A program made the position numbers and the translations under genes. DNA of 33,600 nucleotides from Sulfurovum sp. (GTDB lineage: Bacteria > Campylobacterota > Campylobacteria > Campylobacterales > Sulfurovaceae). Numbering within the stretch: position 1 is the first letter of the stretch; each line of letters opens with the position of its first letter. Location of the stretch: contig JAQVHV010000011.1 of the NCBI GenBank assembly GCA_028696055.1, positions 1-33,600 on the forward strand, written 5' to 3'. This document shows, one piece after another, positions 29,081 to 30,068 of this stretch. The notes beneath the pieces were generated by a model. The model saw nothing but the letters and a program-made list of their open reading frames with translations, ran no database searches and had not been told where the DNA came from.

Positions 29081-29103
29081 ACCATTCCTTCTGCCTAAAT
29101 AAA

Positions 29104-29373
29104 AGGGTGCTTCTAAAAACCCTATGGCGACCATAGAAGGTACAGTTGGGGTAAGATTTAGTGAGAGATTTTCGAAAGCCTAGCCGTAGCTAAGTCAAGA
29201 AAATATCTCGCTGAAGATTGCTCCAAATTTACCTTCCCTTTGGGCTTCATGAGCTTCGCCTTATGCTGCGTTGTGTCTCCTTGACTATACTTCAGCATAG
29301 CCTGTGTCGGCACGCCTTGCCTAAGACGAAGCTCAAGAAGCTATGGCCACCATAGGGTTTTTAGAAGTACCCT
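29104..29373. mobile_element. MITE-like element with 33-bp terminal inverted repeats
   Basis: The left end (29104-29136) and right end (29341-29373) are inverted copies that match at 30 of 33 positions, including CTTCTAAAAACCCTATGG. Each inner end holds its own small palindrome, CTATGG-N3-CCATAG. The 204-bp interior has no long reading frame but nested inverted repeats: GAGCTTCGCCTTA pairs with TAAGACGAAGCTC (12 of 13), ATGCTG with CAGCAT, and GAGAGATTTTC with GAAAATATCTC (one base out). AT-rich flanks (AAA on both sides) may be a short target duplication. It lies between queC and ybeY, and its left end reaches into the longest queC frame. The transposase would act in trans. Confidence 0.8.
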
Positions 29374-29408
29374 AAAGTATTTTACCAATATTTGGGTAAA
29401 CTTCGGGC

Positions 29409-29834: not shown

Positions 29835-29882
29835 ACGAAACCGGTTTCACAAAAGCCGTCTGCTGACAAGCATTAAAATGCA

Positions 29883-30041
29883 GTGCAAGCGAAGCACTTC
29901 TAGGCTAAAGCCTGATGCAAGCTTTTCACTAAATGAAAAACTGTGAAATGCTGAGTCGTAGGATTTGTCTAACGGACTTATACAGGAAATCACTAAATGA
30001 TTTCTCGTACAACCGCGTGGGTCGGGACTCTGTTCCGATCC
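29883..30041 (+). other. Highly structured intergenic region before the exchanger gene
   Basis: Five hairpins lie in a row. GTGC/GCAC is at 29883-29897. AGGCT/AGCCT is at 29902-29913. TTTTCA/TGAAAA with loop CTAAA is at 29923-29939. GAAATCA/TGATTTC with the same loop CTAAA is at 29986-30004. A 10-bp stem with UCU loop and two G-U pairs is at 30019-30041. The last ends 28 nt before the exchanger's GTG. I see no reading frame here. It may be a repeat unit, a small RNA or a 5' leader structure; no known riboswitch class was recognised. Confidence 0.55.
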
Positions 30042-30068
30042 AAATCAGCATAAAAAAGGAAAATTACC

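Follow-up and report, generated by a model that had tools for sequence, protein, structure and literature searches.

We analysed a window of 33,600 nucleotides from a Sulfurovum sp. contig, in which a strongly folding element lies between the divergent genes queC and ybeY. A repeat search of the window gave terminal inverted repeats at 29104-29136 and 29341-29373 (33 nt, 91% complementary, 30/33) separated by 204 nt, with a second inverted repeat nested in the element at 29244-29266 / 29319-29341. The folding energy of the 270 nt is -131.3 kcal/mol, against -72.9 +/- 4.7 for shuffled sequences (z -12.4, 0/200 shuffles as low), and the opposite strand folds about equally (z -11.6). These values agree with an earlier note on this DNA, which had described 33-bp inverted repeats (30/33) around a non-coding 204-bp core with nested hairpins. 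No plausible reading frame lies within the element, and its ends carry terminator-like patterns of a stem and T-run in both directions. Comparison with the rest of the family places the true ends at GGG...CCC, 29105-29372, one base inside the repeat calls, and the covariance model of the interior module (R1) matches at 29140-29342 with 174 bits (E 5.8e-34). The parts of the element are as follows.

29105-29372, + strand: complete element, 268 bp, end class a, GGG...CCC, arm A first (family boundaries, target site duplications)
29105-29136, + strand: left terminal inverted repeat, GGGTGCTTCTAAAAACCCTATGGCGACCATAG (inverted repeat; family consensus GGGCACCTCTAAAAACCC)
29341-29372, - strand: right terminal inverted repeat (inverted repeat; family consensus)
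29101-29104, no strand: left flank AAAA, putative 4-bp target duplication (sequence; family duplication length of 4)
29373-29376, no strand: right flank TAAA, putative 4-bp target duplication (sequence; family duplication length of 4)
29137-29235, + strand: arm A of the module (fold, consensus structure, covariation, alignment of 38 modules)
29155-29156 and 29216-29217, + strand: conserved GA/GA internal loop of arm A (consensus structure)
29180-29193, + strand: apical core hairpin of arm A, CTAGCCGTAGCTAA, intact in the window copy (exact core; alignment)
29236-29244, + strand: junction mini-hairpin CCC-TTT-GGG between the arms (kept in nearly all copies)
29244-29341, + strand: arm B of the module (nested inverted repeat; consensus structure)
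29285-29300, + strand: apical hairpin of arm B, degenerate in the window copy, CTATACTTCAGCATAG replacing TTAGCTACGGCTAG (alignment)

The window copy has no second core within 3 mismatches at the usual spacing. Its flanks match at 3/4 bases (AAAA versus TAAA), and TAAA is the commonest target site duplication (TSD) in the family.

In three close relatives (L035, L036, L037), metagenome-assembled genomes named Sulfurovum, Campylobacterales or Epsilonproteobacteria, queC and ybeY are adjacent and the gap holds no element. These relatives encode a YbeY 92-93% identical to that of the window and share the order lipoprotein-queC-ybeY, with about 60 bp between the start codons. The window junction reads gcctaaataaaa-[element]-taaagtatttt, versus gcctaaatatgcaagtatttt and similar sequences at the empty sites, which the earlier note had proposed to look for. 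Because these three genomes keep queC and ybeY together without it, the window element is an insertion into the ~60-bp gap of the divergent pair. The native queC start (ATG at 29080-29078 or 29074-29072) is intact and falls outside the element, as does its Shine-Dalgarno-like AGAAGGA, and both match the empty-site relatives. The extended queC frame of the ORF caller begins at an ATG at 29134, inside the element, which bears out the suggestion that the left end enlarges the apparent queC frame. Since the divergent genes share the gap, the element would separate any promoters located in that gap; a simple promoter scan of the gap detected nothing.

Searches with the window element as query found copies in 26 of the 78 genomes of the genus, and the core motif as query found them in 36/78. 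We collected 83 copies with both ends of the window type, which we call class a (ends GGGCACCTCTAAAAACC, terminal inverted repeat consensus GGGCACCTCTAAAAACCC). Exact 4-bp TSDs flush with GGG/CCC were present in 48 of these copies, with one mismatch in 19 more, while shifting the frame by 1-9 bases gave 0-5 exact matches. The targets resemble TTAA, and 70 of the 83 copies are exactly 265-266 bp long. An exact class a TSD is also present in 12 of another 25 copies, which come mostly from other genera. By simple ORF calling, none of 79 copies interrupts a called gene: 44 are flanked by tandem genes, 25 by divergent and 10 by convergent ones. Their orientation towards the flanking genes shows no bias (15 versus 12). 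Both results speak more for a mobile element than for a fixed host RNA. Shorter derivatives were also found, comprising stem-only forms of 50-59 bp with intact TSDs (L188, L204 with 50-55 bp, and L397) and a one-arm form (L187).

Solitary class a ends of about 18-30 bp, with no partner end, occur at L189-L203 in genomes G001, G002 and G004. A gene starts within ~60 bp downstream of several of them (e.g., L189, L190, L193, L199), as if elements had been deleted up to, or used by, the 5' region of the gene. When the stretches next to solitary class a ends in these three genomes were searched for a transposase, no convincing partner end emerged, except for a diverged full-length copy at L202.

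A candidate source of transposase was found through a 924-bp copy in G004, which has class a ends, a TSD of ATAT and a decayed reading frame. Relatives of this frame in G021 and G061 are IS5-family members (NCBIfam NF033581; Pfam DUF772 and DDE_Tnp_1). In the sister genome G061 the transposase gene is bracketed by a left end GGGCACCTCTAAAAACCC after ATCA and a right end GGGTTATTAGAGGTGCCC before ATCA; this insertion sequence (IS) is split over two contigs, and the ends bracket the two gene parts. We take the G061 element as the putative autonomous partner of class a, whose terminal repeats and TSDs are identical in kind to those of that IS, as expected of an IS5-derived miniature inverted-repeat transposable element (MITE). 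No match to DDE_Tnp_1 (PF01609) was found in the window's own genome (G000, assembly 87% complete) or in G001, which holds two dozen copies. Because neither has such a gene, the partner must have been lost from both genomes or lie in unassembled sequence. A transposase in the same genome is not strictly defining, and its absence lowers the present-day mobility of the element, not its past origin. Comparing the ends with IS elements, as the note had proposed, led to a transposase in the sister genome and to none in the window's own assembly. In the decayed G004 copy, an IS200-like Y1 transposase fragment (PF01797) is nested at L185:727-924 (G004:C1:1293626-1293823).

Together, the empty sites, the TSDs and an IS5-family element with matching ends uphold the earlier view of a non-autonomous inverted-repeat element moved in trans, and trans movement of class a by a DDE transposase is well supported. 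The idea that it could be the end of a larger IS has to be given up, as the element is complete, with both ends and a full module, and there is no transposase nearby. The R1 model finds three copies in the genome, namely the window element, C65 and C146. The note had proposed a family within this genome, where the element in fact has only two relatives, one of them diverged (C65, 69% identity to the window element and conserved in place in G015) and the other with different ends (C146). Close relatives have one or two copies each, none of them at queC-ybeY.

Across the phylum, R1 (E <= 1e-6) matched 61 of the 397 sampled genomes in 20/68 genera, all Campylobacterales and mostly with full-length matches. 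A copy on a 395-kb plasmid of Sulfurovum mangrovi (NZ_CP087125.1:95719-95919), between the malate dehydrogenase and isocitrate dehydrogenase genes, indicates a possible route of spread. Carriage by phages was rejected, as phage records gave no match.

The interior of ~203 nt is one conserved module, in which two arms of ~100 nt are capped by inverted copies of CTAGCCGTAGCTAA, spaced 105-111 nt apart in all pairs extracted. Within the outer stem of terminal repeats follow arm A (GA/GA loop, CTAGCCGTAGCTAA), a CCC-NNN-GGG mini-hairpin and arm B, which keeps the motifs TATGC...GTTA / TGCCTNG and is capped by the inverse hairpin TTAGCTACGGCTAG. In an alignment of 38 divergent modules spanning the main end types (A2), compensatory change on both sides is seen at 59 of the 71 base pairs, and 96.1% of cells are paired. 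Double-change cells number 512, against 118 +/- 9 in shuffled and 79-123 in slid controls, and 20 columns are invariant at a mean identity of 72%. The consensus structure built from 25 class a representatives comprises 107 pairs, and double-sided changes affect 81 of them (one row, L147, is mis-oriented, which weakens the signal). The positions of internal loops and bulges are shared by all end classes. At <2% divergence, just 5 of the 276 pairs that differ have changed on both sides, against 76% at >30%. Because doubles are rare at low divergence and mount with it, pair change is stepwise, not simultaneous; slow correction between arms is still compatible with these counts. The earlier note had named a fixed structured RNA as the alternative to mobility. 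That alternative is partly true, since the core covaries and is conserved order-wide, although the window copy is not fixed in place; what the note overlooked is that this covarying module occurs with several kinds of terminal repeat.

The same module is bordered by end classes a, b, c and d and by rarer types e-j. Class b ends (AGACTTCTTGCAAAAC) have 3-bp TSDs, exact in 15/26 copies; class c ends (TYACCGCACCAACTA) have a target duplication that is apparently TA (6/9, rows counted by eye); class d ends are (T)GAACCCTCTGAATAAC. Since the a, b and d ends are weakly alike, the end classes are not all independent; for most other pairs the similarity does not exceed that of shuffles. On a tree built from 91 modules, end class has to change 16 times (minimum 9), and the well-supported branches force at least 4 changes for class a and at least 3 for class b. 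Host families are intermixed on this tree, where the window copy clusters with copies from a different family (f18). Because of these switches and this intermixing, module and ends are not travelling as one fixed unit, and elements have probably moved between families. No autonomous class b IS was found in 20 regions inward of class b ends, which held MITEs, a stem-only copy and host genes only. In genome G318 many draft contigs (C1, C13, C16, C21, C25, C27 and others) have their start or a break some 80-95 bp away from a class b end; because of these breaks, the class b copy number there is probably high and under-assembled.

We consider it likely that the window element is a complete, non-autonomous MITE-like element that was moved in trans by an IS5-family transposase and carries a fold under selection. 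The DDE transposase would have cut and joined the terminal repeats at the queC-ybeY gap, and the insertion would leave a 4-bp AT-rich target duplication. The middle keeps its exact two-armed fold while the ends differ by transposon type, which suggests that selection acts to preserve the fold itself. The unit that selection acts on may be the module, as a selfish nucleic-acid fold aiding the propagation or persistence of the element as RNA or as single-stranded, hairpin or cruciform DNA, with ends swapped to exploit whichever transposase is available. More tentatively, and at somewhat less than even chances, the two-armed module would itself be the selfish unit, a protein-free nucleic-acid parasite folding as RNA or single-stranded DNA, which has repeatedly gained the ends of different transposases (with 4-bp, 3-bp and apparently TA target duplications) and spread between Campylobacterales families.

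Three other explanations have to be weighed against a selected, mobile fold. We regard as doubtful, though deserving of attention, that one strand of the module is transcribed into a structured non-coding RNA, which acts in the cell and merely rides on transposon ends. The covariation over 38 modules, the GA/GA loop and the near-invariant wobble (U.G) pairs on the A-first strand (A2 columns 19-88, 27-80, 143-187, 159-172) are what such an RNA would have, and that strand gives the lower individual folding energy for 21 of the 25 representatives. Against it, the reverse strand has the better consensus energy over 79 copies, copies show no orientation bias towards flanking genes, and the module is absent from most genomes. 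Variable pairs have no excess of GU over AC on the A-first strand (84 versus 96 in the 25 representatives, 125 versus 232 in the 79 copies); selection on one strand was rejected as a reading of these intermediates, since their signal was inconsistent and its sign varied with the sequence set. A known Rfam family was likewise rejected, with no covariance-model match in gathering or relaxed mode.

Rather improbable, in our view, is an ordinary MITE in which only the terminal repeats matter and the double changes in a passive interior come from quasi-palindrome correction by template switching. Palindromes are known to undergo such correction during replication, from one hairpin arm to the other; strand-neutral counts of the 25 representatives give GU and AC mismatches at similar frequency; and the stem-only derivatives with intact TSDs indicate that the arms are not strictly needed for insertion. 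Correction would, however, erase the loops and bulges that are kept across all end classes, and a passive interior sits poorly with the 20 invariant columns, the constant spacing of 105-111, a module that outlasts changes of its ends and double changes that mount with divergence (the last being compatible with slow correction). A fixed cis-regulatory structure of queC/ybeY is hardly credible. The element does sit in the shared ~60-bp promoter gap with terminator-like patterns at both ends, but the site is empty in three close relatives, on which ground a fixed regulatory RNA of these genes was rejected, and the element's relatives adjoin unrelated genes.

As a class, the element is a MITE, and class a qualifies as an IS5-derived one. 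It is like IS5-family-derived MITEs in its terminal repeats, its 4-bp AT-rich TSD, its noncoding and intergenic nature and the partner transposase in a related genome; it differs from them in that the interior is a conserved, covarying two-armed module, not an IS remnant, and in that the family also has other terminal repeats and TSD lengths. ERIC, NEMIS (Correia) and RUP are structured bacterial MITEs (PMC3733652). They too are small, intergenic, strongly folding and transcribable elements with inverted repeats. To our knowledge each of these families is tied to one terminal repeat, whereas here the interior is conserved and the ends switch. Short GTAG and CGTC REP elements were reported from Sulfurovum NBC37-1; these are hairpins of 20-40 bp with an unpaired GTAG or CGTC tag, and the CGTC stems begin with AT and have a CCA tail (PMC3733652). 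REP and BIME elements are also palindromic, intergenic, multi-copy and paired in inverted orientation, but the element here is 268 bp with terminal inverted repeats and the family has 3-4 bp TSDs, and the putative class a partner is a DDE transposase, not a RAYT. Identity with the GTAG/CGTC REPs was rejected because size, tag and transposase differ and the module alignment does not fit those REP features. No earlier description of the family was found in the open-access literature, where absence is no proof of novelty; it is a widespread and apparently undescribed family in Campylobacterales, and we know of no earlier case of several end types sharing one covarying module.

Bacterial MITEs are usually viewed as two transposase-binding ends around arbitrary filler. 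Here the conserved part is the filler, with a precise fold and constant spacing that survive changes of ends. Should the module itself be under selection, it would be a protein-free passenger exploiting several transposase families, and the copy-rich strains make the role of its fold testable. Annotators gain a covariance model for an order-wide repeat that is absent from Rfam and distorts gene starts, as with queC here.

Another gap of the window, 29836-30068 downstream of ybeY, also folds well (z -4.9). It is a mosaic whose segments are found individually at five or six further sites in the genome (C58, C28, C127, C27, C118, C30), and is apparently another intergenic repeat family, distinct from the queC-ybeY element.
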